A stretch of 64,000 nucleotides of DNA from contig NZ_CP006587.1 in assembly GCF_000737515.1 (NCBI RefSeq), forward strand, positions 1,178,001 to 1,242,000. Direction: 5' to 3'. The notes below the pieces were generated by a model, which worked only from the letters and a program-made list of their open reading frames with translations, was not told where the DNA came from and made no database searches. Source of the DNA: Hymenobacter sp. APR13. GTDB taxonomy: Bacteria > Bacteroidota > Bacteroidia > Cytophagales > Hymenobacteraceae. Below, piece by piece: positions 24,490 through 42,746 of this stretch (its first letter is position 1; the number at the start of each line of letters is the position of its first letter). A program made the translations under genes and the position numbers.

Positions 24490-25044
24490 ATGGATACCCG
24501 AGTTCCTGAAATCAAAACGGTAGACGCGCCCGACGGCCTCGAAGGCGCCGGCTTCTTTGCTACCTCCCTGGAGAAAGTGGTGGGCATTGCCCGCGCCAAC
24601 TCGCTCTGGCCATTGCCCTTCGCCACCTCCTGCTGCGGCATCGAGTTCATGGCTACCATGGGCTCCCGCTACGACATCTCCCGCTTCGGCTCGGAGCGCC
24701 CCAGCTTCTCACCCCGGCAGGCCGACCTGCTGATGGTGATGGGCACCATCGCCAAGAAGATGGCCCCCATCGTGAAGCAGGTGTACGAGCAGATGGCCGA
24801 GCCACGCTGGGTGCTGGCCATGGGCGCTTGCGCCTCCTCGGGCGGTATTTTCGATACCTACTCCGTGCTCCAGGGCATCGACCGGATCATTCCGGTAGAT
24901 GTGTACGTGCCCGGCTGCCCACCCCGCCCCGAGCAGGTGCTCGACGGCCTGATGCGCATCCAGGACCTGGCCAAAAACGAATCCTTCCGCCGCCGCAACT
25001 CGCCCGAGTATCAGGCCCTGCTGGCGTCGTACAACATCAAGTAA
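24490..25044 (+). CDS. nuoB: NADH-quinone oxidoreductase subunit B
   Basis: A 184-residue peripheral-arm subunit that holds cluster N2, the last iron-sulfur centre before quinone. The four ligands are visible in the tandem cysteines of ATSCCGIEF, in GACASSGG and in VPGCPPRPE. Its length matches the family. A short-unit hairpin fills the spacer to nuoC. Confidence 0.97.
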
Positions 25045-25045
25045 G

Positions 25046-25130
25046 TAGTGAGTATTGGGTATTGAGTAGGTAGACTTTTCATCGTCGGCAGCTCAATACT
25101 CAATACCAAATACTCAATACTAAGTACTCA
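25046..25130. repeat. Short-unit hairpin between nuoB and nuoC (unit near TGAGTAT)
   Basis: The left arm (25046-25071) contains GAGTATTGGGTATTGAGTAG; the right arm (25092-25130) contains CTCAATACCAAATACTCAAT. Both are degenerate tandem 7-mers, complementary to one another across a loop of about 20 bases. The right arm ends four bases before the nuoC ATG. Confidence 0.85.
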
Positions 25131-25133
25131 GAA

Positions 25134-25697
25134 ATGGCTGACCAGAACGAATCCATCCCGGCTCAGGAACAGGCTGCCGCCCAGGACCCGGCCGCGCAGA
25201 AAAACGCGCAGCTGCTGGCTCTGCTGCACCGCCTGTTCGGGGCCGACGCCTTCACCGACGTGGAGGAGCCCTACGGCCTGCTGACCGCCACCACCACCCG
25301 GGAGCGGATTCACGACATCATTGAAGGCCTGCAGAAGGACGAGGAGCTCCAGCTCAACTTCCTGACCACAATGTGCGGCATGCACTTCCCCGACCGGCCC
25401 GGTCAGGAACTCGGCATGGTGTACCACCTGCACAGCCTCACCCAGAACATCCGGTTGCGCCTGAAGATCTTCTTCCCGATTGCCGACCCGGTTGCCCCGA
25501 CCCTGACCGACCTCTACGCCACCGCCAACTGGATGGAGCGCGAGGCCTTCGACTTCTACGGCATCATCTTCCCCGGCCACCCCAACCTCATGCGCATCCT
25601 CAATGTGGAGGACATGGACTACCACCCGATGCGCAAGGAGTACGCCCTGGAAGACGGTACCCGCGAAGACAAAACCGACCTGTTCTTCGGACGATAG
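25134..25697 (+). CDS. nuoC: NADH-quinone oxidoreductase subunit C
   Basis: A 187-residue peripheral-arm subunit (30 kDa type). The family signature is EREAFDFYGIIFPGHPNLMR followed by DYHPMRKEY. The N-terminal 25 residues (QEQAAAQDPAAQKNAQ) are a low-complexity extension. It is separate from nuoD, unlike the fused NuoCD of enterics. Bounded on both sides by short-unit hairpins. Confidence 0.96.
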   Translation: MADQNESIPAQEQAAAQDPAAQKNAQLLALLHRLFGADAFTDVEEPYGLLTATTTRERIHDIIEGLQKDEELQLNFLTTMCGMHFPDRPGQELGMVYHLHSLTQNIRLRLKIFFPIADPVAPTLTDLYATANWMEREAFDFYGIIFPGHPNLMRILNVEDMDYHPMRKEYALEDGTREDKTDLFFGR

Positions 25698-25701
25698 TTT
25701 T

Positions 25702-25788
25702 TTAGTGCTTAGTGCCTTGTGCTTGGTGCATAGGCAACAAAATCAGACCTGATTACTAAGCACGAAGCACTGAGCACTAAGCACCAAA
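25702..25788. repeat. Short-unit hairpin between nuoC and nuoD (unit AGTGCTT)
   Basis: The left arm (25702-25731) reads AGTGCTTAGTGCCTTGTGCT; the right arm (25755-25787) holds the complement AGCACTGAGCACTAAGCACC. The unit is seven bases and each arm has about four copies. It spans nearly all of the 95-base spacer. The same unit recurs at 58366-58464. Confidence 0.88.
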
Positions 25789-25792
25789 CCAG

Positions 25793-27061
25793 ATGGCAGT
25801 AAACGACACGCTGGAAGGCACCCATAAAATCATTGAGTCGGCCCGGGAGCAGGAGCCGCGGCTGAACCCGCTGGCCCCTACCGTCAACGACTTCAACCAG
25901 GAGCTCACCACGCTGAACCTGGGCCCCACGCACCCCGCTACCCACGGCATCTTCCAGAACATTCTGCAGATGGACGGCGAGCGGATTGTGGCGGGTGTGC
26001 CCACCATCGGCTACATCCACCGCGCCTTCGAGAAGATTGCCGAGCGCCGGCCCTTCTACCAGATTACGCCCCTGACGGACCGCATGAACTACTGTTCGTC
26101 GCCCATCAACAACATGGGCTGGCACATGACGGTGGAGAAGCTGCTGGGCGTGGAAGTTCCAAAGCGCGCCCAGTACATCCGGGTTATCCTGATGGAGTTG
26201 GCCCGCATCACCGACCACCTGATCTGCAACGGCATTCTGGGCGTGGATACGGGCGCTTTCACCGGCTTCCTCTACCTCATGGATGAGCGGGAGAAGGTGT
26301 ACGAGATTTACGAGGAAGTAAGCGGCGCCCGCCTCACCACCAACATGGGCCGCGTGGGCGGCATGGAGCGCGACTTCTCCGACGTGGCCATTGCCAAGCT
26401 GCGCGCTTGGCTGAAGACCTTCCCGGCCGTGATGGCGGAGTTCGAGAAGATGTTCAACCGCAACCGCATCTTCATGGACCGCGTGGTGGACGTGGGCGGC
26501 ATTTCGGCCGAACGCGCCCTCAACTACGGCTTCACCGGCCCCAACCTGCGCGCCGCCGGCGTCGATTACGATGTGCGGGTGATGAACCCCTACTCCAGCT
26601 ACCAGGACTTCGAGTTCGAAATTCCGGTGGGCACCAAGGGCGACACCTACGACCGATTCATGGTGCGCAACGAGGAAATCTGGCAGAGCCTGCGCATCAT
26701 CACGCAGGCCCTGGAAAACCTGCCCCAAGGCCCCTACCACGCCGACGCGCCGCATTTCTACCTGCCGCCCAAACAGGCCGTGTACCAGAACATGGAGGCC
26801 CTCATCTATCACTTCAAGATTGTGATGGGCGAGATTGACGCTCCCGTGGGCGAGGTTTACCACTCGGTGGAAGGCGGCAACGGCGAGCTGGGTTTCTACC
26901 TGGTATCCGACGGCGGCCGCACGCCCTACCGCCTGCACTTCCGCCGGCCCTGCTTCATCTACTACCAAGCCTACACCGAAATGGTGGTGGGCCAGACCCT
27001 CTCCGACGCCATCGTGACGCTGTCGTCGATGAACGTAATTGCCGGGGAGCTCGACGCGTAA
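25793..27061 (+). CDS. nuoD: NADH-quinone oxidoreductase subunit D
   Basis: A 422-residue subunit (49 kDa type) that forms the quinone-binding pocket with NuoB. Conserved segments: LGPTHPATHGIFQNI, with the pocket histidines, GYIHRAFEKIAERR, RDMNYCSSPINN-like region (DRMNYCSSPINNMGW), and GVDTGAFTGFLY. The C-terminus ends GELDA rather than the usual DR, as in other Bacteroidetes to the best of memory. It is followed 12 bases later by a toxin-antitoxin pair. Confidence 0.97.
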   Translation: MAVNDTLEGTHKIIESAREQEPRLNPLAPTVNDFNQELTTLNLGPTHPATHGIFQNILQMDGERIVAGVPTIGYIHRAFEKIAERRPFYQITPLTDRMNYCSSPINNMGWHMTVEKLLGVEVPKRAQYIRVILMELARITDHLICNGILGVDTGAFTGFLYLMDEREKVYEIYEEVSGARLTTNMGRVGGMERDFSDVAIAKLRAWLKTFPAVMAEFEKMFNRNRIFMDRVVDVGGISAERALNYGFTGPNLRAAGVDYDVRVMNPYSSYQDFEFEIPVGTKGDTYDRFMVRNEEIWQSLRIITQALENLPQGPYHADAPHFYLPPKQAVYQNMEALIYHFKIVMGEIDAPVGEVYHSVEGGNGELGFYLVSDGGRTPYRLHFRRPCFIYYQAYTEMVVGQTLSDAIVTLSSMNVIAGELDA

Positions 27062-27073
27062 ACCATTTTTGCC

Positions 27074-27391
27074 GTGTATCTCTCGCCTCAGCAGTTGCGC
27101 ATCATTCAGGACTTCTTTCGGACCAAACCGGTGCGAAAGGTGTATCTGTTTGGTTCGTATGCGCGGGGCGAGGCTACCGCCGAAAGCGACATCGACTTAC
27201 TCGCTGAGCTGGACCATACGGAGCCTATCGGCTGGAATTTTTTCGGCTGGCATGAGGAATTGGCCACTCTACTGGGAAATCCGGTGGACCTGAGTACGCC
27301 ACAAGGTCTGGCACCCATGTACCGGCCGTTTATTGAAGCCGACCGAACCCTTATCTATGAAAGGTCAGATTGGCGACAAACAGCGGCTTGA
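27074..27391 (+). CDS. mntA: MntA-type minimal nucleotidyltransferase (probable antitoxin)
   Basis: A 105-residue protein with the nucleotidyltransferase signature GSYARG with D39 and D41 (GSX10DXD) in ESDIDLLAEL. MntA proteins AMPylate and neutralise HepT toxins. The start is GTG 27074, 12 bases after nuoD; there is no other in-frame start. It overlaps the HepT gene by 35 bases in another frame. The pair lies inside the complex I operon between nuoD and nuoE, which is unusual. Codon use is less GC-biased than the nuo genes. Function inferred from family and pairing. Confidence 0.88.
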   Translation: MYLSPQQLRIIQDFFRTKPVRKVYLFGSYARGEATAESDIDLLAELDHTEPIGWNFFGWHEELATLLGNPVDLSTPQGLAPMYRPFIEADRTLIYERSDWRQTAA

Positions 27392-27707
27392 GCACATGCT
27401 TTTGGCAATAGCCGAAGTGGAAGGATTTGTGGCCGGCCTCACCCGCCCGGAATTCGATCAGGACCACAAAACGCTTTTTGCCAGTGTGCGTGGCCTCGAA
27501 ATTCTGGGGGAAGCAGCCCGTCACGTTTCTGATGAAACGAAGACCCGCTTCCCGGAGGTACCGTGGCAAAAGGCTACGCATCTTCGCAACTTTGTCATCC
27601 ATCAGTACTTTGCCGTCGATAATGAAATTCTGTGGGAAGTGATACAGCACCAGTTGCCCCCTCTCCGTCCACAACTTGAACAAGTGCTCCGCGCACTTTC
27701 TACCTAA
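27357..27707 (+). CDS. hepT: HepT-like ribonuclease toxin (DUF86 family)
   Basis: A 116-residue, mostly helical protein with the HepT active-site motif RX4HXY visible as R77-NFVI-H82-Q-Y84. HepT is a HEPN RNase whose tyrosine is AMPylated by MntA. ATG 27357 overlaps the 3' end of mntA, and its TAA stop shares one base with the nuoE ATG (TAATG), so nuoE translation may be coupled to hepT. All key residues are intact, so it may be functional. Confidence 0.88.
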   Translation: MKGQIGDKQRLEHMLLAIAEVEGFVAGLTRPEFDQDHKTLFASVRGLEILGEAARHVSDETKTRFPEVPWQKATHLRNFVIHQYFAVDNEILWEVIQHQLPPLRPQLEQVLRALST

Positions 27708-28282
27708 TGGAAGCATCAACTACAACCGCGAAGCCGCAATTCTCCGAAGCCGCTCAGGCTGAAATTGCGCGCATCTGCAAGCAATACCCGGAGGAGCGCC
27801 GCAAATCGGCCATGCTGCCGGTGCTGCACATTGCCCAGGCCGAATTTGGCGGCTGGGTAAGCCCCGAAGTGCAGGATCTGGTGGCCGAAGTGCTGGGCGT
27901 GGCCCCGATTGAGGTGTACGAGGTGTCGTCGTTCTACACCATGTTCAACCTTAAGCCAGTCGGCAAGCACGTGCTGGAAATCTGCCGCACGGGCCCCTGC
28001 ATGCTGCGCGGCTCCGACGAGCTGACGGCCCACTTGGAGCGCATCACGGGCGCCAAAGTAGGCGGTCCGGCTTCGGAAGACGGCCTGTTCACGCTCAAGG
28101 AAGTGGAGTGCCTGGCCGCCTGCGGCTTCGCCCCCATCGTGCAGGTACGCGAGAAATACTACGAGCAGCTTGATACCCCGGAAGCCGTGGACGCCATGCT
28201 TACGGAGCTGCGCAACCAGGTGCACCGCCCGGCCCTGCCCTGGGAAGAAACCGGCCTCCCGAACGCAGTGGCCAACAACTAA
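27707..28282 (+). CDS. nuoE: NADH-quinone oxidoreductase subunit E
   Basis: A 191-residue thioredoxin-like ferredoxin subunit with cluster N1a. The 2Fe-2S ligands lie in EICRTGPCMLRG (two cysteines) and in VECLAACGFAP (two cysteines). ATG 27707 overlaps the hepT stop by one base (TAATG), the only point where the nuo genes touch the toxin-antitoxin module. Only 20 bases separate it from nuoF. Confidence 0.96.
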   Translation: MEASTTTAKPQFSEAAQAEIARICKQYPEERRKSAMLPVLHIAQAEFGGWVSPEVQDLVAEVLGVAPIEVYEVSSFYTMFNLKPVGKHVLEICRTGPCMLRGSDELTAHLERITGAKVGGPASEDGLFTLKEVECLAACGFAPIVQVREKYYEQLDTPEAVDAMLTELRNQVHRPALPWEETGLPNAVANN

Positions 28283-28302
28283 CGTCTTTCAGCTCTGAAC
28301 CT

Positions 28303-29643
28303 ATGGGACGCAAACTGCTGACCGAACATATTAACGTTGAAGGCATCGACACCCTGGAGGTGTACCGCAAGCATGGCGGCTACCGCTCGGTGGAGAAGGC
28401 TCTGAAAACGATGACGCCCGATGAGGTGGTGGAAGAAGTGAAGAAGTCGGGCCTGCGGGGCCGCGGCGGCGCGGGCTTCCCCACGGGTATGAAGTGGAGC
28501 TTCCTGGCTAAGCCCGAGGGCGTGCCGCGCTACCTCGTCTGCAACGCCGACGAATCGGAGCCGGGCACCTTCAAGGACCGCCAGCTGATGTCGAAGCTGC
28601 CCCACCTGCTCATCGAGGGCATGATTACGAGCTCGTACGCGCTGGGCGCCAACACCTCGTATATCTACATCCGCGGCGAGTTGTTGTACGTGCTGCGCAT
28701 CCTCGAAAAAGCTATTGCTGAAGCCTACGCGGCCGGTTTCCTGGGTAAGAACATCCTGGGCTCGGGCTACGACCTGGACCTGCACGTGCACCCCGGCGGC
28801 GGCGCTTACATCTGCGGTGAGGAAACTGCGCTGCTGGAAAGCCTGGAAGGCAAGCGCGGCAACCCGCGCAACAAGCCTCCATTCCCGGCTGTGCAGGGCC
28901 TCTACGCCCGCCCCACGGTGGTAAACAACGTGGAATCCATTGCCGCCGTGCCGGTGATTGTGAACGAGGGCGGCGACGAGTACGCCAAAATCGGGGTGGG
29001 CCGAAGCACCGGCACCAAGCTGATTTCGGCCTGCGGACACCTCAACAAGCCCGGCATCTACGAAATTGAGCTGGGTCTGCCCGTCGAGGAATTCATCTAC
29101 TCAGATGAGTACTGCGGCGGCATCTGGAAGGGCCGCGACCTGAAGGCGGTAGTAGCCGGCGGTTCGTCGGTGCCGATTCTGCCCAAGGAGCTGATCCTGA
29201 AGACCGCCGCCGGCGAAAACCGCCTGATGACCTACGAGTCGCTCAGCGACGGGGGTTTCGTGACGGGTACCATGCTGGGCTCGGGTGGCTTCATTGCCAT
29301 GGACGAGACGACCTGCATCGTGCGCAACACCTGGAACTTCTCGCGCTTCTACCACCACGAGTCGTGCGGGCAATGCTCTCCCTGCCGTGAGGGTACGGGC
29401 TGGATGGAAAAGGTGCTGCACCGCCTCGAGCACGGCCACGGCCACATGGAGGACATCGACCTGCTGGTAAGCGTGGCCAAGCAAATCGAGGGCAACACCA
29501 TCTGCCCCCTCGGTGAAGCCGCCGCCTGGCCCGTAGCCGCCGCCGTGCGCCACTTCCGCCACGAGTTTGAGTGGCACGTGACCCACGCCAAGGAAGCCGC
29601 ACAACCCGGCGCGGTGTACCGGGCCGGGGCCGTGCTGGCGTAA
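28303..29643 (+). CDS. nuoF: NADH-quinone oxidoreductase subunit F (NADH-binding, FMN)
   Basis: A 446-residue subunit that oxidises NADH and passes electrons to FMN. Seen: RGRGGAGFPTGMKWSF (NADH site), AYICGEETALLESLEG (FMN site), and the N3 4Fe-4S cluster ligands in SCGQCSPCREG plus the later NTICPLGEAA. It lies 20 bases after nuoE. A modular palindromic repeat follows before nuoG. Confidence 0.97.
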   Translation: MGRKLLTEHINVEGIDTLEVYRKHGGYRSVEKALKTMTPDEVVEEVKKSGLRGRGGAGFPTGMKWSFLAKPEGVPRYLVCNADESEPGTFKDRQLMSKLPHLLIEGMITSSYALGANTSYIYIRGELLYVLRILEKAIAEAYAAGFLGKNILGSGYDLDLHVHPGGGAYICGEETALLESLEGKRGNPRNKPPFPAVQGLYARPTVVNNVESIAAVPVIVNEGGDEYAKIGVGRSTGTKLISACGHLNKPGIYEIELGLPVEEFIYSDEYCGGIWKGRDLKAVVAGGSSVPILPKELILKTAAGENRLMTYESLSDGGFVTGTMLGSGGFIAMDETTCIVRNTWNFSRFYHHESCGQCSPCREGTGWMEKVLHRLEHGHGHMEDIDLLVSVAKQIEGNTICPLGEAAAWPVAAAVRHFRHEFEWHVTHAKEAAQPGAVYRAGAVLA

Positions 29644-29646
29644 CTG

Positions 29647-29755
29647 AACGTCATGCTGAGCTTGCCGAAGCATCTCTACCGCTTCGTTGAGTTATTTGAA
29701 TTACCACTGCGGTAGAGATGCTTCGACTTCGCTGCGCTACGCTCAGCATGACGAC
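29647..29755. repeat. Modular palindromic repeat between nuoF and nuoG
   Basis: Left arm: CATGCTGAGCTTGCC, then GAAGCATCTCTACCGCTTCG. Right arm: GCGGTAGAGATGCTTCG, then ACTTCGCTGCGCTACGCTCA. The outer parts of the two arms belong to different module types, so the element appears recombinant. It is followed by the nuoG ATG 20 bases later. Confidence 0.85.
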
Positions 29756-29775
29756 CTAAAGACGACATAACTTCA

Positions 29776-30777
29776 ATGGCTAAAATTACTTTCGACGGCA
29801 TCGAGGTGGAAGTTCCGGACGGAACCACCATCCTGAATGCGGCCCGCCAGATTGGCGGCAGCATCGTGCCCCCGGCCATGTGCTACTACACCCCGCTGAA
29901 AGGCTCGGGCGGTAAGTGCCGCGCCTGCCTCGTTCGCGTGGCGGCCGGTTCGGCCAAAGACCCGCGCCCTATGCCCAAGCTCGTGGCCTCGTGCGTGACG
30001 CCGGTGCAGGATGGCATGGTGGTGGAAAACACCACCAACTCGCAGGTGCTGGACGTGCGCAAGGGCATCGTGGAGATGCTGCTCATCAACCATCCCCTGG
30101 ATTGCCCCGTGTGCGACCAGGCCGGCGAGTGTGACCTGCAAAACTTCGCCTTCGAGCACGGTGTGAGCACCACCCGCTACCAGGAAGAGCGCCGCACCTT
30201 CGAGAAAATCGACATTGGCCCGCTGATTCAGCTGCACATGACGCGCTGCATCTTGTGCTACCGCTGCGTGTACACGGCCAACCAGATTACTGACAACCGC
30301 GTGCACGGCGTACTGGGCCGCGGCGACGCCGCCGAAATCGGCACCTACATCGAGAACATCATCGACAACGACTTCTCCGGCAACGTCATCGACGTGTGCC
30401 CGGTAGGCGCGCTGACCGATAAGACGTTCCGCTTCAAGTCGCGCGTGTGGTTCACGAAGCCCGTGAATGCGCACCGTGACTGCCCCAAGTGCTCCGGCAA
30501 CGTGGTGCTCTGGTACAAAGGCAACGACGTGCTACGCACCACGGCCCGCAAGGACCAGTACGGCGAGGTGAAAGAGTGGATCTGCAACGAGTGCCGCTTC
30601 GAGAAGAAGGAAACTTCCGACTGGACCATCGAGGGCCCCGCCCACATCGACCGGTCTTCGGTTATTTCGGCCAACCACTACGAGCTGCCGGTCCTCAACC
30701 AGTCGGTAGTAGCCGACCTGCCCGAAAGCACCCAGCGCGACCTGCAGAAGAACCCACCGCTGAAATTAGGTAACTGA
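29776..30777 (+). CDS. nuoG: NADH-quinone oxidoreductase subunit G, short form
   Basis: 333 residues, against roughly 700-900 for NuoG with a full molybdopterin-like domain. The N-terminal 2Fe-2S ferredoxin is present (CYYTPLKGSGGKCRACLVRV), followed by NHPLDCPVCDQAGECDLQ and TRCILCYRCVYTANQ for 4Fe-4S clusters, then only the first part of the next domain (CPKCSGNVVLWYKG, ICNECRFEKKET). The rest of the large C-terminal domain is absent. No frameshift is visible and nuoH follows normally. Short NuoG is reported from other Bacteroidetes, so this is probably its natural length. Confidence 0.93.
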   Translation: MAKITFDGIEVEVPDGTTILNAARQIGGSIVPPAMCYYTPLKGSGGKCRACLVRVAAGSAKDPRPMPKLVASCVTPVQDGMVVENTTNSQVLDVRKGIVEMLLINHPLDCPVCDQAGECDLQNFAFEHGVSTTRYQEERRTFEKIDIGPLIQLHMTRCILCYRCVYTANQITDNRVHGVLGRGDAAEIGTYIENIIDNDFSGNVIDVCPVGALTDKTFRFKSRVWFTKPVNAHRDCPKCSGNVVLWYKGNDVLRTTARKDQYGEVKEWICNECRFEKKETSDWTIEGPAHIDRSSVISANHYELPVLNQSVVADLPESTQRDLQKNPPLKLGN

Positions 30778-30782
30778 TTTTC

Positions 30783-30872
30783 GGCTGTTAGCTGATGGCT
30801 GCTGGCTGTTAGCTTTCTTTGCTACTTCCCCGAACATAAAGCTAATGGCTAACAGCTATTAGCCAACAGCTC
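30783..30872. repeat. Short-unit hairpin between nuoG and nuoH (unit GCTGTTA)
   Basis: The left arm has GCTGTTAGCTGATGGCTGCT and continues GGCTGTTAGC; the right arm carries AGCTAATGGCTAACAGC and repeats. Each arm has about four 7-base units. The right arm ends six bases before the nuoH ATG. Confidence 0.87.
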
Positions 30873-30878
30873 AAAAAC

Positions 30879-31958
30879 ATGATTGAACTACCCGCACTAG
30901 GCTGGCAATCCATTGTCATCTTCGTCGTTTTCGCGCTTTCGCTGCTGATTGCGACGTATTGCACCTACGCGGAACGCGTAATTGCCGCATTCCTGCAGGA
31001 CCGTGTGGGCCCCGACCGCGCCGGCCCCTATGGCCTAGCGCAGCCGCTGGCCGATGCCGTGAAGATGTTCACGAAGGAAGAATTCTTCCCCGGTGGTGCC
31101 AACAAGGCGCTGTTCGTGTTCGGCCCTTGCCTGGCCATGATTACGGCCCTGATGTCGTCGGCGGTTATTCCGTTCGGCAACATCATGAACTTCGGCAACA
31201 ACCTGTTCTTCTTGCAAGGCATTGAGGTGAACATCGGCATGCTGTGGGTGTTCGGTGTGGTGTCGTTGGGCGTGTACGGCGTGATGATTGGTGGCTGGGC
31301 CTCCAACAACAAGTTCTCTCTGCTGGGTGCCATCCGCGCCGCTTCGCAGAACATCAGCTACGAGCTGGCCATGGGCATGGCCCTGATTGCCGTGCTGATG
31401 ATTTCGGGCACGCTGAGCTTGCGCGAAATCACGCTGCAGCAGTCGGCAGCCGGTGAGTGGCACGTCTGGAACATCGTGAAACAGCCGCTGGGCTTTATCA
31501 TCTTCTTGGTGTGCGCCTTCGCTGAAACCAACCGCACTCCTTTCGACCTTCCCGAGTGCGAAACCGAGCTGGTAGGCGGCTACCACACCGAGTATTCGTC
31601 GATGAAGCTGGGCTTGTACCTATTCTCGGAGTACGTGAACATCTTCGTGGTGTCGGCCGTGATGAGCGTGCTGTACTTCGGCGGCTTCAACTTCCCCTTC
31701 CAGTACGAGCTGCGCGACTGGTTCGTGAGCAGCCAGGGCTGGGAGCTGGCTTCGGCCCAGAACCTGATTACGCTGCTGGGCACCGTGGGCCTGTTCCTGA
31801 AGATCTTCGCCTTCATCTTCTTCTTCATGTGGATCCGCTGGACTTTGCCGCGCTTCCGCTATGACCAGCTGATGCGCCTGGGCTGGACCATCCTCATCCC
31901 GCTGGCCGTTTTCAACATCGTCCTCACCGGTGGCCTCATTTTGGCTGGCGTGATTTAA
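30879..31958 (+). CDS. nuoH: NADH-quinone oxidoreductase subunit H
   Basis: A 359-residue membrane subunit with about eight membrane segments, joining the peripheral arm to the proton-pumping arm at the quinone site. Conserved: ERVIAAFLQDRVGPDRAGPY with the quinone-site arginine/aspartate cluster, and AFAETNRTPFDLPE. A modular palindromic repeat follows. Confidence 0.97.
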   Translation: MIELPALGWQSIVIFVVFALSLLIATYCTYAERVIAAFLQDRVGPDRAGPYGLAQPLADAVKMFTKEEFFPGGANKALFVFGPCLAMITALMSSAVIPFGNIMNFGNNLFFLQGIEVNIGMLWVFGVVSLGVYGVMIGGWASNNKFSLLGAIRAASQNISYELAMGMALIAVLMISGTLSLREITLQQSAAGEWHVWNIVKQPLGFIIFLVCAFAETNRTPFDLPECETELVGGYHTEYSSMKLGLYLFSEYVNIFVVSAVMSVLYFGGFNFPFQYELRDWFVSSQGWELASAQNLITLLGTVGLFLKIFAFIFFFMWIRWTLPRFRYDQLMRLGWTILIPLAVFNIVLTGGLILAGVI

Positions 31959-31981
31959 GTACCTTTAAACTGCCCGCGTCT

Positions 31982-32072
31982 GTCATGCAGAGCGCAGCGA
32001 AGCATCTCGCGTGCTGACGTTGTGCTACCAGCTAACGGCGCATGCGAGATGCTTCGCTGCGCTCTGCATGAC
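31982..32072. repeat. Modular palindromic repeat between nuoH and nuoI
   Basis: Left arm GTCATGCAGAGCGCAGC, then GAAGCATCTCGC; right arm GCGAGATGCTTCGCTGCGCT, then CTGCATGAC. The arms are almost perfect complements. It has the CATGCAGAGC outer module and the CGCGTGCTGACGTT inner module on its left side. Confidence 0.87.
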
Positions 32073-32107
32073 GGCCCATCATTCCGACAGTTTTCGTAAC
32101 TGATTAT

Positions 32108-32671
32108 ATGCAACTCACCAACCGAGCCAAGAAGCTAGAAAAGAAGCCGATGACGCTGGCCGAGCGGGCGTACCTGCCGGCCATCTTCCAGGGTTTGAGC
32201 ATCACGATGCGCCACTTCTTCATGAAGAAGGCCACCGTGCGCTACCCCGAGGAAGTGCGGCCCTTCTCCAACACGTTCCGCGGCCTGCACGTGCTCAAGC
32301 GCGACGAGCAGGGCCGGGAGCGGTGCACCGCCTGCGGCCTCTGCGCCGTGGCCTGCCCCGCCGAAGCCATTACAATGGTGGCCGGTGAGCGGAAAAAGGG
32401 CGAAGAAGGCCTCTACCGCGAGGAGAAGTACGCCATCAGCTATGAAATCAACATGCTGCGGTGCATCTTCTGCGGCCTCTGTGAGGAAGCCTGCCCCAAA
32501 GCCGCCGTCTATCTCCAGCCCGACAAGATGGCCCCGCCGCGCTACGAGCGGGACGAGTTCATCTACGGCAAGGACCGCCTGGTGGAGCCCGTGTCGCCGG
32601 ACGAGCGTTCCGTGCGCGGCATCCAGCTCACCGCCGACCAGGCTACCACGCTGCGGGCCCGCATTGGCTAG
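32108..32671 (+). CDS. nuoI: NADH-quinone oxidoreductase subunit I
   Basis: A 187-residue subunit carrying two 4Fe-4S clusters (N6a, N6b) between NuoG and NuoB. The motifs are CTACGLCAVACPAEAI and CIFCGLCEEACPKAAV, the textbook CxxCxxCxxxCP pair. A short amphipathic N-terminus with LPAIFQGLSITMRH helps membrane docking. The stop codon is the first base pair of the next repeat. Confidence 0.97.
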   Translation: MQLTNRAKKLEKKPMTLAERAYLPAIFQGLSITMRHFFMKKATVRYPEEVRPFSNTFRGLHVLKRDEQGRERCTACGLCAVACPAEAITMVAGERKKGEEGLYREEKYAISYEINMLRCIFCGLCEEACPKAAVYLQPDKMAPPRYERDEFIYGKDRLVEPVSPDERSVRGIQLTADQATTLRARIG

Positions 32672-32767
32672 TTGTCAGTTGCTGGTAGTCAGTTGTCAGG
32701 GCTCTTGCGCTGCATAACTTACTACCGCCTTTCAAACTGACCACTGACAACCAACAACTGACAACTC
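32671..32767. repeat. Short-unit hairpin between nuoI and nuoJ (unit GTTGTCA)
   Basis: The left arm begins in the nuoI stop codon: GTTGTCAGTTGCTGGTAGTC, then AGTTGTCAGG. The right arm is ACTGACCACTGACAACCAAC, then AACTGACAACT. Four tandem 7-base units per arm, complementary across about 36 bases. Confidence 0.88.
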
Positions 32768-32772
32768 ACTCC

Positions 32773-33285
32773 ATGTCTCCAATCTTCCTCTTTCTGACCT
32801 TCGTGGCGCTGCTGAGCGCGCTGGGGGTGGTGTTTGCCAAAAACCCGGTGCACAGCGTGCTGTTCCTGATTCTGACGTTCTTCTCGCTGTCGGGACACTA
32901 CCTACTGCTGAACGCGCAGTTTCTGGCAGCCGTGAACATCATCGTGTACGCCGGCGCCATCATGGTGCTGTTCCTGTTCGTGATTATGTTCCTGAACCTG
33001 AACGTGGATACCGAGCCGCACAAGCCAGCCCTGGCCAAGATTGCGGCGGCCGTAGCCGGTGGCTCCCTCCTGCTCATCCTCGTAGCCGCCCTGAAAGACG
33101 TAACGCCCACCGGCGTACCAGCTGGCACCGCCTTCAACTCGCAGATTGGTATGGTAGACCAGCTGGGTATGAAGCTCTACACCGATTACCTGCTGCCCTT
33201 CGAGCTGGCCTCGGTACTGTTCCTGGTAGCCATGGTCGGTGCCGTAATGCTCGGCAAGCGCGAAGTAGGCGAGCGGAATTTCTAA
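32773..33285 (+). CDS. nuoJ: NADH-quinone oxidoreductase subunit J
   Basis: A 170-residue membrane subunit with five membrane segments, starting MSPIFLFLTFVALLSALGVV. The family's conserved GAIMVLFLFVIMFLN segment lies near residues 58-75. It ends the first part of the nuo cluster; a terminator follows 27 bases later and nuoK lies 2.6 kb away, where the other membrane subunits resume. Confidence 0.95.
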   Translation: MSPIFLFLTFVALLSALGVVFAKNPVHSVLFLILTFFSLSGHYLLLNAQFLAAVNIIVYAGAIMVLFLFVIMFLNLNVDTEPHKPALAKIAAAVAGGSLLLILVAALKDVTPTGVPAGTAFNSQIGMVDQLGMKLYTDYLLPFELASVLFLVAMVGAVMLGKREVGERNF

Positions 33286-33311
33286 TATTATCCGCTGGCT
33301 TCAGTGGAAAC

Positions 33312-33350
33312 CAAGCGCGGCGGCTGATGTATCAGCCGCCGCGCTTTTTT
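33312..33350 (+). terminator. Rho-independent terminator after nuoJ
   Basis: GCGCGGCGGCTGAT and ATCAGCCGCCGCGC form a 14-base-pair stem with a very short loop and a run of six Ts. It should end transcripts of the nuoA-J part, so nuoKLMN needs its own promoter. Confidence 0.93.
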
Positions 33351-33374
33351 ATGACCAACAAGCAAGAAAATACT

Positions 33375-33842
33375 ATGTATACCATAGCTAACAATTTGGG
33401 CCGAATCAGTTTTCACGATTCATCCATCGAGGCTATAACTCGCGCCAATAATCTACTGACTCTGTCCTTCGATTGGGCAAAAGTTCAAGACTACGGGGAT
33501 GGCTCTGACTGCTTTGATATAGTTGTCGGCAAGTGCTGTTTGACCCTTGATGGAGTAATGTCAGAGGCATTTTTGAATCACGGAAATGCCGTTGACACAG
33601 TACAGACGCCAACCCTTCCACAAGTTCATCTGCCCATTGATGTAGATCAGTCATTCCCTCTAATTTCCGTAAATACATTCAGCATCACGGCATCTGGCCA
33701 ATGTTTATCATTGGGCGGCGTTTACGAAGGAGCAGAAGGGGCTTACTGGCTGGAATACCGGATTCAATTCCAAAGTGGCTGCTTGAACTGGAATAACCAC
33801 GTTACGGCAATAGGCTGGCGGAAGGGCTATATCCCGCAGTAA
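33375..33842 (+). CDS. Hypothetical protein, possibly immunity-like
   Basis: About 155 residues, with the start placed at MYTIANNLGRISFHDS; an earlier ATG (33351) lies immediately after the terminator T run and would add eight residues. No clear family. The segment FHDSSIEAITRANNLLTLSFD followed by an acidic stretch recalls the FHDxxI pattern of some small immunity-type proteins, but this is weak. Base composition is much richer in A and T than the nuo genes, which suggests recent acquisition. Its 3' end lies in a perfect hairpin. Confidence 0.65.
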   Translation: MYTIANNLGRISFHDSSIEAITRANNLLTLSFDWAKVQDYGDGSDCFDIVVGKCCLTLDGVMSEAFLNHGNAVDTVQTPTLPQVHLPIDVDQSFPLISVNTFSITASGQCLSLGGVYEGAEGAYWLEYRIQFQSGCLNWNNHVTAIGWRKGYIPQ

Positions 33843-33896
33843 AGCAGCAGCGGCACCTGAAGAATCAGGTGCCGCTGCTGCTTTACTGCGGGATAT
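33829..33896. repeat. Perfect 32-base-pair hairpin with a four-base loop
   Basis: ATATCCCGCAGT and AAAGCAGCAGCGGCACCTGA on the left (33829-33860) are exactly complementary to 33865-33896; the loop is AGAA. The left arm encodes the last four residues and stop of the preceding gene. There is no T run after it, so it is not a standard terminator, though it separates convergent genes. Confidence 0.9.
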
Positions 33897-33903
33897 AAAC
33901 CGC

Positions 33904-34269
33904 CTACTCCGTTTCCGGACTGCGGCGGCGCATCCAGGCGGGGCCGGTGCAGGCGCCCTCCATTTTCTGGCGGAATTTCTCTTTTTCCTCGGGCGTGAGG
34001 CACTCCAGGCGGGTTTCCATCTGCTGCTTCCATTGGCGGCGCTTACGGGCCCAGCCGGCGCGGTGGCCGCGGCCGCCCCAGCCCCCGAACAGGATGCGCG
34101 AGAGAACCAGCAGCCCCAGCGCCTGCCAGATGCTGATGAGGGGCAGGTTGAACAGGTCGGGCAGCAGCCAGTTCCAAAGGCGCATGGTCACGTAGCCGGC
34201 CACGGCCAGGAACAGCGTAATCAGGAGCAGTATTTTGAGGCCGTGTAACAGGCGAAAGGAGCGGTTCAT
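33904..34269 (-). CDS. Small membrane protein downstream of an ECF sigma factor
   Basis: A 121-residue protein with two hydrophobic segments (near residues 10-29 and 44-62), a basic linker, and a C-terminal helical part with LTPEEKEKFRQKMEG, similar to the LTXXQ/heavy-metal-sensing helical motifs. It lies 122 bases downstream of the sigma factor gene, separated by a modular repeat, and might be a regulator of it; no anti-sigma domain can be named. Function unknown. Confidence 0.75.
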   Translation of the reverse strand: MNRSFRLLHGLKILLLITLFLAVAGYVTMRLWNWLLPDLFNLPLISIWQALGLLVLSRILFGGWGGRGHRAGWARKRRQWKQQMETRLECLTPEEKEKFRQKMEGACTGPAWMRRRSPETE

Positions 34270-34287
34270 TTCGGGTAGTTTTTAGAA

Positions 34288-34388
34288 GAACGTCATGCTG
34301 AGCTTGCCGAAGCATCTCGCGTGCTGATGTCTGAATGATATGGCAACGTCAGCACGCGAGATGCTTCGGCAAGCTCAGCATGACGTTC
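34288..34388. repeat. Modular palindromic repeat between the sigma factor and the membrane protein
   Basis: Left arm AGAACGTCATGCTGAGC, then TTGCCGAAGCATCTCGC; right arm GCGAGATGCTTCGGCAAGC, then TCAGCATGACGTTCT. It has the CATGCTGAGC outer and CGTGCTGA inner modules. It lies in the middle of a probable operon. Confidence 0.88.
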
Positions 34389-34391
34389 TGG

Positions 34392-34997
34392 TTAATCAGT
34401 AAACAGCTCGGTGTAGAGCGTGCGGAGGCGTTTGCGCAGGTGCTGCACGGCGTAGTGCTTGCGCGAAATCAGGGTTTTGAGCGGGACGCCGGTTTCCTCC
34501 TCCATTTCGCGGAAGGTTTTGTCTTCCAGCTCGTGCCAGATGAAGACCTGACGCTGGGCGGCTGGCAGCTCAGCCAAGGCGTCGCTGAGGGCTTCCATGA
34601 GGGTTTCGCGCAGCAGCCGGTTTTCGGGCGCGTCGTCTACGGCGGGCAGGATGTCGGCCAGCAACAGGGTGTTTTCGTCGCCGTCGGCAGCAAAGGCGGC
34701 CATTTCGTTTTCCAGCGAAACGGGCTTTTTGCGGCGGTACAGGTCGGTTATTTTGTTGCGGGCCACCCGGAACAGCCAGGCGGCGGCCTGCTCCACGGGC
34801 TTCATCAGCCGGTAGCTTTCCACCAGCTCGGCAAACACGTCCTGCAGCACGTCTTCGGCCTCGGCCTCGTTGGGAATGCGGCGTCGGATAAACGCCAGCA
34901 GCCGCTTCCGTTGGGTGCGCACGGCTTCCTGTATCTGCAGGTCCTGGTGGCCGGCCGTCATGCGTGCAGCGTCGAGAGGTAGAGCTAGGGGTTCCAT
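34392..34997 (-). CDS. RNA polymerase sigma factor, ECF subfamily
   Basis: About 201 residues from ATG 34997; ATG 34961 is possible. Region 2 has EAEDVLQDVFAELVES and WLFRVARNKITDLYR; region 4 has LPAAQRQVFIWHELEDKTFR and a helix-turn-helix GVPLKTLISRKHYAVQHL. Together these are diagnostic of a group 4 sigma factor. No classic anti-sigma gene is adjacent; the small membrane protein downstream is the only candidate. Probably an envelope-stress or metal response regulator (inference). Confidence 0.92.
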   Translation of the reverse strand: MEPLALPLDAARMTAGHQDLQIQEAVRTQRKRLLAFIRRRIPNEAEAEDVLQDVFAELVESYRLMKPVEQAAAWLFRVARNKITDLYRRKKPVSLENEMAAFAADGDENTLLLADILPAVDDAPENRLLRETLMEALSDALAELPAAQRQVFIWHELEDKTFREMEEETGVPLKTLISRKHYAVQHLRKRLRTLYTELFTD

Positions 34998-35068
34998 TCT
35001 GCTGACACAGACGTGGAGGGCCGGAAGATACTTTACCGGGGAGCGGAAATTTTATTGGGCTGGTCTAA

Positions 35069-35156
35069 ACGTGTCATTCCGAGCGGAGCGAGGAATCTGG
35101 ATAACTCGCCACAACGGTCTGTACCCAGATTCCTCGCTCCGCTCGGAATGACACGT
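35069..35156. repeat. Modular palindromic repeat, CATTCCGAGC type
   Basis: Left arm ACGTGTCATTCCGAGCGGAG, then CGAGGAATCTGG; right arm CCCAGATTCCTCGCTCCGCT, then CGGAATGACACGT. Perfect arms of over 30 bases; the core is GGAATCT rather than GAAGCATCT. Lies between the sigma factor and the MaoC gene. Confidence 0.9.
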
Positions 35157-35175
35157 GTATACTGAAAAATCACTC

Positions 35176-35637
35176 CTACAAAAAGTGGTACAGGAACGTA
35201 ATAACGCCGGTATACGCGGGCTTTTTCTGGCCCTCGATTTCCATCGTTACGCCAATATTGGCTTTGGCAATGCCACGCAGGTCTTTTACGGCCAGCAGCT
35301 TGGCGTGCAGGCGCACGGCGCTGCCCACTACCACCGCCTGGTTGAAGCGGAACTCGCTGATTTCGTAGTTCACCTGCATCTTCAGGTTTTCTACCTGCAC
35401 GAGCTGGTTCCAAAAGTAGGGAAGCAACGACAGCGTGAGGTAGCCGTGGGCAATGGTGCCGCCAAACGGCGACTCAGCGGCGGCGCGCTCGGGGTCGGTG
35501 TGGATCCACTGGAAATCCAGGGTGGCGGCGGCAAACTGGTTGATTTGCTCTTGGGTGATGGTGTGCCAGGGCGTCGTGCCGAGGTCCTGGCCCTCGTACT
35601 GTTGCAGCTCGGCTAAGCTGCCAATCGTGATACTCAT
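35176..35637 (-). CDS. MaoC-family (R)-hydratase
   Basis: A 153-residue single hot-dog-fold hydratase. The catalytic pair is in DFQWIHTDPERA and SPFGGTIAHGYLTLSLLP (Asp and His), the hydratase-2 motif. These enzymes hydrate 2-enoyl-CoA in fatty-acid or polyhydroxyalkanoate metabolism; the exact substrate is not shown. It is transcribed away from nuoK across a 245-base spacer. Confidence 0.9.
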   Translation of the reverse strand: MSITIGSLAELQQYEGQDLGTTPWHTITQEQINQFAAATLDFQWIHTDPERAAAESPFGGTIAHGYLTLSLLPYFWNQLVQVENLKMQVNYEISEFRFNQAVVVGSAVRLHAKLLAVKDLRGIAKANIGVTMEIEGQKKPAYTGVITFLYHFL

Positions 35638-35812
35638 GCGAAATAGGTTGCGGTGGCGGAAGTACTAAAGTACGGTTTGCCTACGGGAGCGGCTGCACCT
35701 GCCGCGAAAAAGGTAAGGCCGGGTTTCTGGTAGCGGGTTCTCCAGCGAATCTTCGCCTCGAAAACGCCCGAATCAGGCCAATTTAAAGGGTGGCGTTTTC
35801 CGATTTTCAGGA

Positions 35813-35820
35813 TACCTTTG
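35813..35820 (+). promoter_or_regulatory. -7 box (TACCTTTG) for nuoK and following genes
   Basis: A perfect TAnnTTTG match 62 bases before the nuoK ATG. This would drive nuoKLMN separately from the nuoA-J transcript, whose terminator lies 2.5 kb upstream. Confidence 0.65.
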
Positions 35821-35882
35821 CCAGCTAATTGCCCCGTCGTGCCCCGGCCGATGGGGCTTCGTTCCGCCGCCAACGCTACCGC

Positions 35883-36215
35883 ATGGACCAGAACATACCG
35901 CAGGTTATCCAAACGGTTCCTCTTCAGTACTACGTCTTCTTCGCCGCCGCCCTATTTTCCATCGGGGTGCTGGGCGTACTCACGCGGCGCAACGCCATCA
36001 TCATCTTCATGTGCGTGGAGCTGATGCTGAACGCCGTAAACGTGCTGCTGACGGCCTTCTCGGCCTACCGCGCCGACCCCAACGGGCAGGTATTCGTGTT
36101 CTTCATCATGGCCGTGGCCGCCGCCGAAGTGGCGGTCGGGCTGGCTATCATCGTGATGATCTACCGCAACCTGCAGAATACCGACGTTAATCTGCTCAAC
36201 CGCCTGAAATTCTAG
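35883..36215 (+). CDS. nuoK: NADH-quinone oxidoreductase subunit K
   Basis: A 110-residue membrane subunit with three membrane segments. The conserved acidic positions are visible in FMCVELMLNAVNVLL and VAAAEVAVGLAIIVMIYR; these are part of the proton channel. ATG 35883 (MDQNIPQVIQTVPLQYY) is preferred to an upstream in-frame ATG. It resumes the nuo cluster after the insertion. Confidence 0.96.
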   Translation: MDQNIPQVIQTVPLQYYVFFAAALFSIGVLGVLTRRNAIIIFMCVELMLNAVNVLLTAFSAYRADPNGQVFVFFIMAVAAAEVAVGLAIIVMIYRNLQNTDVNLLNRLKF

Positions 36216-36225
36216 GTAAGGGCCT

Positions 36226-36299
36226 TAGGGACTCAGGGACTTGGGGACTTGGCATCGACCAGTCCAAGTCCTCAAGTCCCTGAGTCCTCAAGTCCCTGA
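36226..36299. repeat. Short-unit hairpin between nuoK and nuoL (8-base unit GGGACTTG)
   Basis: Left arm TAGGGACTCAGGGACTTGGG, then GACTTGG; right arm AGTCCAAGTCCTCAAGTCCC and CTCAAGTCCCTGA. The unit is eight bases here. The right arm ends four bases before the nuoL ATG. Confidence 0.88.
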
Positions 36300-36303
36300 C
36301 TAT

Positions 36304-41535: not shown

Positions 41536-42660
41536 ATGAAACGCGTCGGCTTTCTGTTTTGTCTGCTCTTCCCATTTGCTGCTCCTGCTCAGACGCCGGC
41601 CGCCTCCAGCCTGCCCGAGCAAAGCTTCGAGCAATTCTGGCAGGCCTTCCGCGACCATTACGCCTTCTTCCCGCTCAAACAGGTCGACTGGGACGCCACC
41701 TACCGCGCCTACCGCCCCCGCATCACGGCCCAGACGCCGCAGGATTCGTTGGTGCAGGTACTTAGCCGCATGGTGGCACCGCTGCACGATGGGCACATCA
41801 CTATTAGCCAGGGCGAAACCATCCTGTTCAAGGGCGAAAGCCGCCGCAACTCGTTCAAGCAAACCTTCAAGGCCGTGCAACCCGAGTTCTGGCGGGTAGC
41901 CGGGCAGCAGTTGCAGGCAGCCGGCTTCGGCCCACTAAAAGGGCTCGGCCCTGATTTCAAAGGCAAGCAGCCGCTCTACGTGAGCCGCAGCGGCGGCATC
42001 GGCTACCTGCACCTCACCCGTAACTTCGCCGATATCAGCGGCGCCATCGGCACCGACGCGCAGGAGAAGAAGGATCAACAGCGGCTGGAGAAGCTGTTTT
42101 CGCAGGCCTTGAAGCAGCTGAGCGGTTGCCAGGTGCTGCTGCTGGACGTCCGCGACGACGGCGGCGGCCACAGTGGTGTGGAGCTGGCCGGGCACTTCGC
42201 AACCGAGCGGGTCCTGACCAGCTACAAAGCCCTGCGCCAGCCCGGCGGTTACGACCGGTTTACGGAACCACAGCCCGTGTACGTAACGCCCGCCGCTGGT
42301 CCGCGCTTCGCCGGCCCGGTCATCCTACTCACCTCCGACCAGACCGCCAGCGCCGCCGAGGACCTAACCATTGCCCTCACTCAGCTGCCCCAGGTGACGC
42401 ATATAGGCACCGCCACTAAGGGCATGCTCTCCGATATGTACAGCGTGCACCTGCCCAACGGCCTCGACGTGACCCTCTCCCACCAGCGCTACACCACCCC
42501 CGCCGGCCAACTCCTTGAAGACGTAGGCGTGCAGCCCGACGTGCTGATAGAAAACACCCTGCCCGCCCTGCAGCAGCAGCGCGACCCGGTATTGGAAAAA
42601 GCGTTGGAACTGGCCCGGACAGAAGCCGCCAAGCGCACCACGCCTGGCACTATTAAGTAG
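41536..42660 (+). CDS. S41-family (C-terminal processing-type) serine peptidase
   Basis: A 374-residue exported peptidase; ATG 41536 opens a signal peptide MKRVGFLFCLLFPFAAPAQ. Residues about 30-110 form the N-terminal helical part, and the catalytic region follows with GIGYLHLTRNFADIS, LLLDVRDDGGG (the oxyanion region), and VILLTSDQTASAAEDLTIAL with the nucleophile serine in TASAAED. No PDZ domain is clearly seen. Tricorn-like or retinol-binding-like S41 peptidases of this size occur in Bacteroidetes. Confidence 0.9.
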   Translation: MKRVGFLFCLLFPFAAPAQTPAASSLPEQSFEQFWQAFRDHYAFFPLKQVDWDATYRAYRPRITAQTPQDSLVQVLSRMVAPLHDGHITISQGETILFKGESRRNSFKQTFKAVQPEFWRVAGQQLQAAGFGPLKGLGPDFKGKQPLYVSRSGGIGYLHLTRNFADISGAIGTDAQEKKDQQRLEKLFSQALKQLSGCQVLLLDVRDDGGGHSGVELAGHFATERVLTSYKALRQPGGYDRFTEPQPVYVTPAAGPRFAGPVILLTSDQTASAAEDLTIALTQLPQVTHIGTATKGMLSDMYSVHLPNGLDVTLSHQRYTTPAGQLLEDVGVQPDVLIENTLPALQQQRDPVLEKALELARTEAAKRTTPGTIK

Positions 42661-42663
42661 TAA

Positions 42664-42746
42664 GATTTGAGTACTTGGTATTGAGTAGTAAGAACCTAAT
42701 CAGCACTTCACCCTAAGTGCTTAATACCCAATGCTCAATACTCACT
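42664..42746. repeat. Short-unit hairpin (unit TTGAGTA) overlapping a stop codon
   Basis: Left arm TTTGAGTACTTGGTATTGAG and GTAG; right arm TTAATACCCAATGCTCAATA, then CTCAC. The units are seven bases. The right arm contains the TGA stop of the minus-strand OmpA gene. Related to the 25046-25130 repeat. Confidence 0.82.

Follow-up and report, generated by a model that had tools for sequence, protein, structure and literature searches.

Gene-edge hairpins with paired heptad arms in the nuo operon and genome of Hymenobacter

Five spacers of the nuo operon in a 5.01-Mb Hymenobacter genome each contain a hairpin whose two arms are tandem arrays of a 7- or 8-nt unit, and the unit differs from spacer to spacer. 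The window analysed is the whole 64,000-nt stretch G000:C1 1178001-1242000. An original prediction made on it had claimed such hairpins at B/C, C/D, G/H, I/J and K/L, and all five are present. Followed through the rest of the genome and into orthologous spacers of related genomes, they are confirmed as belonging to a genuine class of heptad hairpins at gene edges that is spread across the genus. The turnover of the unit at fixed sites, together with compensatory changes between the arms, supports the proposal that structure is preserved rather than sequence, and suggests that it is the shape of these elements that matters while the word in their arms may be free to change.

Periodic hairpins in the window and the genome

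The nuoB/nuoC hairpin (25044..25121; arms 25044-25068 and 25097-25121, unit TGAGTAT, loop 28 nt) begins at the final base of the nuoB stop codon, and the repeat extends to 25130. Between the nuoC stop ending at 25697 and the nuoD start at 25793 lies a hairpin of unit AGTGCTT (25701..25788; arms 25701-25733 and 25756-25788, loop 22 nt), while the nuoG/nuoH hairpin, with unit GCTGTTA, runs from stop to start codon (30775..30879; arms 30775-30816 and 30838-30879). In the nuoI/nuoJ hairpin (32670..32766; unit GTTGTCA, arms 32670-32699 and 32737-32766) the first unit begins with TAG, the stop codon of nuoI, and the nuoK/nuoL hairpin (36216..36300; arms 36216-36252 and 36264-36300, loop 11 nt) is built from the 8-mer GGGACTTG. 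RNA folding z-scores of the five range from -4.8 to -8.6, with none of 200 shuffles as stable in any case. At a stem score of at least 13, the window contains 31 stem-loops against 0.5 per dinucleotide shuffle (ten shuffles). Hairpins with periodic arms, of about four tandem 7-8-mers each, number nine against 0.1 per shuffle, so random sequence does not yield them in equal numbers.

The remaining four had also been predicted and are all present, two of them with qualifications. One of unit TTGAGTA-like (42652..42753, loop 34 nt) lies between convergent genes with stops at 42660 and 42742, and a second AGTGCTT hairpin (58367..58464) is separated by 6 nt from a gene on the minus strand. That at 46164..46368 is a composite, in which 8-mer GGTGATGA arms run into a hairpin (CAGAACGTCATTCCGAGC) resembling repetitive extragenic palindromic (REP) elements, and the AATTAAA-like arms at 52701..52844 make the weakest member (stem score 13, loop 88 nt).

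Eight 20-kb stretches taken at round-number positions in the same genome (score at least 12, one shuffle each) gave 87 hairpins against 4 in the shuffles. In these 160 kb, 14 were flagged periodic against none in the shuffles, and 10 had periods of 7, 8, 14 or 16 on manual reading. Without stretch L084, which contains already-listed AGTGCTT matches, nine periodic hairpins are found in 140 kb; a rough estimate is some 300 per genome. The units recur as well, as had been proposed for checking: the AGTGCTT array pattern, AGGGCTT arrays included, has 131 overlapping matches in the genome (such counts include several matches per array) against 1 for the reversed pattern, and the TTAGCTG pattern has 6 overlapping matches at two mismatches and 10 at three.

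Anatomy was read from 464 kb of this genome (the window together with 20 stretches, of which 12 were picked near AGTGCTT matches), with gene edges and orientation from a simple purpose-made gene caller. Of the 33 periodic hairpins in this sample, 32 fall outside called genes, with 26 flanked by codirectional, 4 by convergent and 2 by divergent gene pairs. Counted by spacer, a periodic hairpin occurs in 25/262 codirectional, 4/62 convergent and 2/58 divergent spacers, and a hairpin of any class in 109/262, 50/62 and 12/58, respectively. For any class the corresponding counts are 67/127, 38/40 and 2/20 in spacers of 75-200 nt, and 40/66, 10/14 and 9/34 in those longer than 200 nt. The orientation counts indicate that hairpins are concentrated at gene 3' ends, being scarce between divergent genes. 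The periodic ones keep particularly close to the genes: 19 of the 32 have both arms, and 29 of the 32 at least one arm, no more than 15 nt away from a gene edge, compared to 20 and 68, respectively, of 170 other hairpins. The median number of units per arm is 4.1 in the genome's own hairpins and 4.3 in those of nuo spacers.

Orthologous nuo spacers and their alleles

Using nuoH of the window as query, 80 related loci were collected (L001-L071 from Hymenobacter or Hymenobacteraceae, the rest from other Bacteroidota, by record titles) and their nuo spacers extracted, those with odd gaps being left out by script. Stems scoring at least 13 occur in 59 of 74 B/C spacers (44 flagged periodic), 29 of 74 C/D (23 periodic), 42 of 80 G/H (27 periodic), 36 of 77 I/J (12 periodic) and 29 of 43 K/L (9 periodic), the sites occupied in the window. 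For the other spacers the counts are 25 of 78 at F/G (3 periodic), 12 of 78 at H/I (1 periodic), 16 of 35 at M/N (2 periodic) and 7 of 75 at E/F (8 periodic), with none of either kind among 75 D/E or 40 L/M spacers. The periodic flags include a few of other kinds, namely two at B/C with periods 15 and 4 and, at K/L, C-rich ones as well as ones with periods 11 and 6. Outside Hymenobacter, periodic hairpins were found at three spacers (G/H, H/I and I/J), in locus L076 or L078.

Of the 67 rows of an eight-gene nuo tree (the window plus 66 loci), 63 carry a B/C hairpin of score at least 11, periodic in 43 and of another kind in 20, and four have none. The B/C unit varies by species (AGTATTG, AGCTGTT, AGGAGCT, AGAGCTT, GTTGCTG, GTTTCTT and others), and the length of the periodic spacers stays at 84-111 nt despite the change of unit. 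Single-linkage clustering at 72% identity, which may merge some independent arrays of one unit, gives 22 B/C allele clusters with 38 changes on the tree, the periodic alleles falling into 9 clusters; across five spacers the number of alleles per locus is 16 to 35. At I/J, TAGTTGT-type arms mostly provide the NuoI stop codon in the 25 spacers examined: NuoI then ends in RIG, RIV, RMA or similar directly before the stop, and otherwise in KLQQA or KLAQQPA. Exceptions are L007, with such arms and a long NuoI end, and L017, with a short end and no such arms.

A fixed polarity runs through these changing units. The 5' arm has more G than C in 118 of 122 distinct periodic nuo stems, compared to 79 of 168 non-periodic nuo stems, which show no polarity; the genomes are related, so the stems are not independent of one another. 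The same polarity is found in 32 of the 33 periodic hairpins of the window's own genome, every convergent and divergent case included, such that the strand read outward from each gene is G/T-rich. Periods are 7 or 14 in 111 of the 122 nuo stems and 8 or 16 in 11; stop codons in all frames were noticed as a conceivable reason for a period of 7.

The 7-mer nuo units commonly share an RG step (purine followed by G), often as TTAG. The information content of the 22 distinct units is 5.08 bits, whereas 40 permutations averaged 3.55 and never exceeded 4.17; own-genome and nuo units pooled reach 4.32 bits against a permuted maximum of 3.62. The 11 own-genome units alone (5.18 bits) are within the permuted range (maximum 5.79), and the 8-mers of either set alone are not above permuted controls, while the 8-mers of both sets together reach 5.53 bits against a permuted maximum of 5.04. 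Within nuo arrays no position varies less than the G of this RG step (2.6%); in own-genome arrays that G varies by 8.3% and another position by 6.7%. Since the units may share descent, this grammar is weaker evidence than the polarity.

Comparison of spacers with their flanks indicates how alleles are distributed. Matches of the window's NuoH to Hymenobacter records reach 99%, and on the eight-gene tree the window groups with L067, L001 and L002 (four rows, starred, Shimodaira-Hasegawa-like approximate likelihood ratio support 99), its top identity being 96%, to L001. At B/C, the 300-nt flanks of these two are 95 and 98% identical and the spacer is 61% identical. Conversely, L003 and L010 share 97% of the B/C spacer between flanks of 89 and 84%, and L004 and L031 share 99% of the C/D spacer between flanks of 85 and 86%. 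In several pairs the shared tract stops within some tens of bases of the spacer, the window's upstream rows, which are shifted by three bases, being disregarded. Four spacers give four different groupings of the nearest relatives, and a near-identical allele across diverged flanks is seen in only 12 pairs. On these comparisons, what passes between species is a whole spacer allele at one locus. Empty C/D sites (∼21 nt, in L007 and others) have by eye no spacer sequence in common with filled ones.

The loops speak to the origin of the arms. Among loops of different nuo spacers 0 of 5408 pairs are similar, which means that the nuo hairpins did not arise by copying of a single element; within one nuo spacer 32 of 1378 pairs are similar. 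Loops of AGTGCTT hairpins from one genome appear unrelated by eye. In the window's genome 2 of 435 loop pairs are similar, one being the REP composite and the other a TTAGGGC pair (L084 6493-6645 and L093 ∼14212-14362), which shares 154 nt at 90%, arms and loop, in opposite orientation; both copies lie between convergent genes and enclose a terminator-like stem in the loop. The arms therefore usually share a word without copying of the element, and whole copies do occur. A whole-copied mobile element is not the rule, and the copying process once suggested for these hairpins is only partly supported, the nuo loops never being similar while the TTAGGGC pair is a copy. A long array of TTAGGGC, a word resembling the repeats of eukaryotic telomeres, also lies at G000:C1 ∼2251378-2251480. 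A REP transposase was considered as mover and rejected: Y1_Tnp was found twice in the genome, and the hairpins near both are non-periodic by eye, giving no link to the heptads. One weak Y1_Tnp match lies near two copies of a GTAGAGACGCAATATTTTGCGTCTC-armed hairpin (L123 1185-1314 and 1890-2021; G000:C1 near 1062183), which is perhaps an element flanked by terminal inverted repeats.

Across 120 Hymenobacter genomes, overlapping matches to the TTAGCTG pattern range from 0 to 375, with at least one in 116; the TTAGTGC pattern is found in 77 and TGAGTAT in 68. The control for the last of these fails because its reversal, TGAGTTA, is a frequent heptad in many Hymenobacter genomes; TGAGTTA words give 433 and 309 overlapping matches in two of them, G399 and G400. 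An AGTGCTT-type pattern (up to three mismatches) occurs in 66 of 296 Bacteroidota genomes, a count that takes in near-variants such as TTATTGC and whose reversed control also matches in some genomes. Outside the genus, stretches were taken from 10 genomes, and those of the nine readable ones (G094 being all N) gave one clear paired 7-mer hairpin (G170), and hairpins of 10-nt, 16-nt and 4-nt period were also flagged. Within it, G166, sampled near known matches, has 8 paired 7-/8-mer hairpins in 60 kb, and in 35.5 kb of G072 (L119, L120) we observed no paired heptads of the usual polarity. Chance or an assembly artefact is rejected by the shuffles, the orthologous sites and the array patterns across Hymenobacter genomes. 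The two outcomes that the original prediction had set as favouring chance or assembly were the opposite of those obtained, since orthologous spacers carry the structures and their units are found again elsewhere in the genome.

Explanations for the paired arms

The explanation we favour, and to which we give about an even chance, is that intercistronic or 3'-end hairpins are selected for pairing, their units drifting by slippage and their alleles spreading by recombination. The selected object would be the gene-edge hairpin, in a REP-type role such as protecting 3' ends or uncoupling or tuning expression between cistrons. Hairpin-templated repair or compensation may carry a change over from one arm to its partner, and new alleles may arrive by homologous recombination across the conserved flanking genes, as in intergenic-region switching. 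The unit would be free to change because a slipped or point-mutated array still pairs. The hairpin as the conserved object is supported; its role as a 3'-end or intercistronic element is what we infer.

Besides the exclusion of chance, the occurrence at orthologous sites, the gene-edge position, the swapping of alleles and the like architecture in Xanthomonas, three comparisons of the arms speak for this explanation. Covariation is seen in the only sufficiently diverged allele class, the AGCTGTT cluster at B/C, of whose 21 loci 18 were used (L006, L034 and L043 being left out). Here 27 cells have kept their pair through changes in both arms; shuffling gives 9.9 on average, with 0 of 500 shuffles as high, and slid controls give 1-5. 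This contrast is not a probability, since the structure comes from the same, related sequences. Over 85 allele-sharing pairs, which are not independent and whose allele sets were chosen by eye, mean divergence is 0.068 in arms, 0.212 in loops and 0.309 at fourfold sites of the flanking genes. A variant of the unit in one arm also tends to have its mirror image in the other: among arrays passing a length filter (from 119 nuo and 33 own-genome arrays), 94 of 102 nuo and 24 of 28 own-genome arrays pair better than when the units of one arm are shuffled, counts biased upward by the selection of arms for pairing.

These limits weigh against selection for pairing, and so do several further observations. 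TGAGTAT alleles (9 sequences) show change on both sides in 0 of 28 pairs, and in some allele pairs the arms diverge more than the loops (L010/L014 at I/J, 0.20 compared to 0.03). Mismatches on the transcribed strand are G.U in 144 cases and A.C in 155, with no G.U excess, and the sense RNA is the more stable of the two strands in just 41 of 122 periodic spacers, a bias seen likewise in hairpin-free ones (33 of 110). Thirteen of the 32 extragenic periodic hairpins of the own-genome sample do not have both arms at gene edges, and a stem near a start codon could hinder initiation. The equal G.U and A.C counts leave no selection on the mRNA strand visible and speak against plain selection for an mRNA fold; with sense RNA not the more stable strand, we reject mRNA-fold selection by G.U bias as not supported. 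Compensation without a G.U excess fits DNA-level correction in the hairpin as well as it fits selection of structure.

Equal G.U and A.C counts are what a DNA-level process predicts, as in a functionless by-product of mutation, in which slippage makes the arrays, quasipalindrome template switching keeps the arms complementary and short gene-end spacers tolerate them. Quasipalindrome template switching is, in the text available of two reports, an established mutation type (PMC3820800, PMC7202029), and the enormous variation in unit counts among genomes, as for TTAGCTG, also agrees with this account. Yet supposedly unstable arms diverge on average three times less than loops and more than four times less than fourfold sites, presence is locus-specific (B/C 59/74 and D/E 0/75 at score at least 13) and slippage alone does not explain the fixed polarity; we regard a pure by-product as possible, though on balance unlikely. 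Somewhat less likely still, in our estimate, is that structure rather than sequence is what is inherited: the hairpin, its polarity and its gene-edge bounds would persist while a DNA-level process, hairpin-templated correction or templated addition at two ends, rewrites the word in both arms together, giving a dominant word specific to each genome and a genus-wide pool of alleles per locus. Templated end addition in its plain form would mend a broken spacer by extending both 3' ends with one short template, in telomere-like fashion, before they are joined. The expected product is a pair of arms that share their unit and have outward G/T polarity, with filler of unrelated sequence as the loop. 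The polarity (118/122 and 32/33), gene-edge bounds, common unit and unrelated loops (0/5408 nuo pairs, and by eye the AGTGCTT hairpins of one genome) agree with it; against these, no enzyme or template RNA has been identified or searched for, one TTAGGGC hairpin pair was copied whole, and slippage with correction explains a shared unit more simply, so we consider it very improbable.

Arrays of binding sites for a protein reading an RG-containing heptad on RNA or DNA (as has been proposed for TAACTGA in Beggiatoaceae), with pairing secondary, would account for the nuo 7-mer grammar (5.08 bits against the permuted maximum of 4.17), the low variability of the RG-step G in nuo arrays and the conservation of arm sequence. 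It is nevertheless an improbable account, as own-genome units alone and the 8-mers of each set alone are within the permuted range, another position is less variable than that G in own-genome arrays, the likeness of units may be due to descent, and the covariation requires pairing. For RRM_1, the sole reader class searched, the genome gave one match that passes the cut-off (E-value 5.1e-4) but covers 34 of 70 positions; this partial match, with the available text of the RbpB paper giving no heptad motif, makes an RRM-type reader a weak candidate. Intrinsic or attenuating transcription terminators, more doubtful again, would suit the strong folds and the location at gene 3' ends, especially of convergent pairs. 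By eye, though, no T run (U-tract in the RNA) follows the 3' arm at the five nuo sites, where a start codon stands instead, the hairpins sit within an operon, and three long-loop hairpins (L084, L093 and L095) enclose, again by eye, a separate terminator-like stem. We give least credence to G-quadruplex elements, proposed for the heptads of Xanthomonas and Nostoc: arms of about four units, as in the available text of the Xanthomonas report (PMC4692102), and a few G-rich units (TTAGGGC, GGGACTT) would agree with them, while four GGG tracts are found in just 3 of 64 own-genome and 4 of 244 nuo arms, and four GG tracts in 9 and 11, a few window arms being counted in both sets. With so few arms capable of them, quadruplexes cannot explain the Hymenobacter layout. 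Between the favoured selection for pairing and a hairpin made and mended by replication, the question becomes testable thanks to the over 100 genomes of the genus, its conserved operon and its many spacer alleles.

The nuo region and comparison with known systems

All nuo genes given here lie on the plus strand. Pfam matches were obtained for nuoB (24490..25044, Oxidored_q6), nuoC (25134..25697, Complex1_30kDa), nuoD (25793..27061, Complex1_49kDa), nuoG (29776..30777), nuoI (32108..32671, 4Fe-4S), nuoJ (32773..33285, Oxidored_q3), nuoK (35829..36215, Oxidored_q2) and nuoL (36304..38259, Proton_antipo_M/N; start from the gene caller). For NuoE, F, H, M and N the names derive from gene order alone, nuoH (30879..31958) not having been run against Pfam. 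Additional open reading frames (ORFs) lie between nuoD and nuoE (27062-27706) and between nuoJ and nuoK (33286-35828); the D/E ORFs are matched in just 4 of the 80 loci, where the median D/E spacer is 24 nt. Other spacers of the region contain non-periodic, partly REP-like hairpins (29649-29753, 31982-32072, 33828-33897, 34287-34389 and 35063-35162), such that the heptad hairpins are one of several hairpin classes there. Those at 29649-29753, 31982-32072, 34287-34389 and 35063-35162 are REP-like (GTCATGCTGAGC.., GTCATTCCGAGC..) and recur in the genome sample, and similar ones fill I/J and further spacers of other species. Elsewhere in the window, a 144-bp tandem repeat of 2.3 copies (47739-48064) lies within a long called gene on the minus strand (46391-49474).

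Tandem heptads in spacers are familiar from filamentous cyanobacteria as short tandemly repeated repetitive (STRR) sequences. Within the open-access papers and terms searched, no earlier paper on hairpins of the present kind in Hymenobacter came up. The TAACTGA direct repeats of Beggiatoaceae, Cyanobacteria and Bacteroidetes are described, in the available text, as tandem 7-mer arrays bordering genes, in most cases directly before a start codon and in C/A-rich orientation (MacGregor 2015, PMC4679880). Their reverse complement, TCAG-TTA, matches the Hymenobacter unit grammar; however, they form a single unit in direct arrays, with one inverted set in the main genome as far as that text goes, whereas Hymenobacter has paired arms. 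REP elements are high-copy intergenic hairpins found mainly between codirectional and convergent genes, most of them, according to the portion consulted, in sequence families with GTAG or CGTC tags and with frequent G.T pairs that were read as support for transcription (Di Nocera et al. 2013, PMC3733652). Set beside this portion, the Hymenobacter hairpins are alike in their enrichment at 3' ends and depletion between divergent genes, and differ in a unit that changes with each nuo site, in tandem arms and in the absence of a G.U excess. No GTAG or CGTC tag was seen in the heptad hairpins, no search being aimed at such tags.

The exchange of spacers also has a counterpart. Intergenic-region switching, as the accessible part of its report has it, places non-homologous spacers between conserved genes, incongruent with gene trees, in upstream regions of E. 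coli and S. aureus (PMC5890482). The Hymenobacter case is of this type, yet it concerns hairpin spacers inside an operon and species of one genus, and offers a clear instance of intra-operon spacer alleles moving between species.

The closest likeness is to the GGGAATC heptads of Xanthomonas. The original prediction did not recognise the paired-arm form, for which their inverted pairs are a close precedent (PMC4692102). In the text available of that report, they are dispersed and intergenic, with four units preferred and 70 and 75 inverted pairs in two genomes; their G-rich strand points away from the adjacent gene, they overlap stop codons, they are rare between divergent genes, and 83% share the same gene context across two species. 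Rehm et al. (2015) tie the size of four units to the requirements of a G-quadruplex (PMC4692102), an explanation suited to G-rich units alone. Hymenobacter and Xanthomonas are thus alike in inverted pairs, about four units per arm, outward G-rich polarity and position at gene edges. They differ in that Xanthomonas has one unit family whereas Hymenobacter has more than 20 units, mostly without G-tracts, part of them 8-mers and none GGGAATC; and change of unit at orthologous sites, covariation of arms and swapping of alleles are seen in Hymenobacter, unlike in the portion of the Xanthomonas report considered here. As the same layout, unit number, polarity and position are found with more than 20 units that are mostly poor in G-tracts, the layout needs a cause other than quadruplexes.

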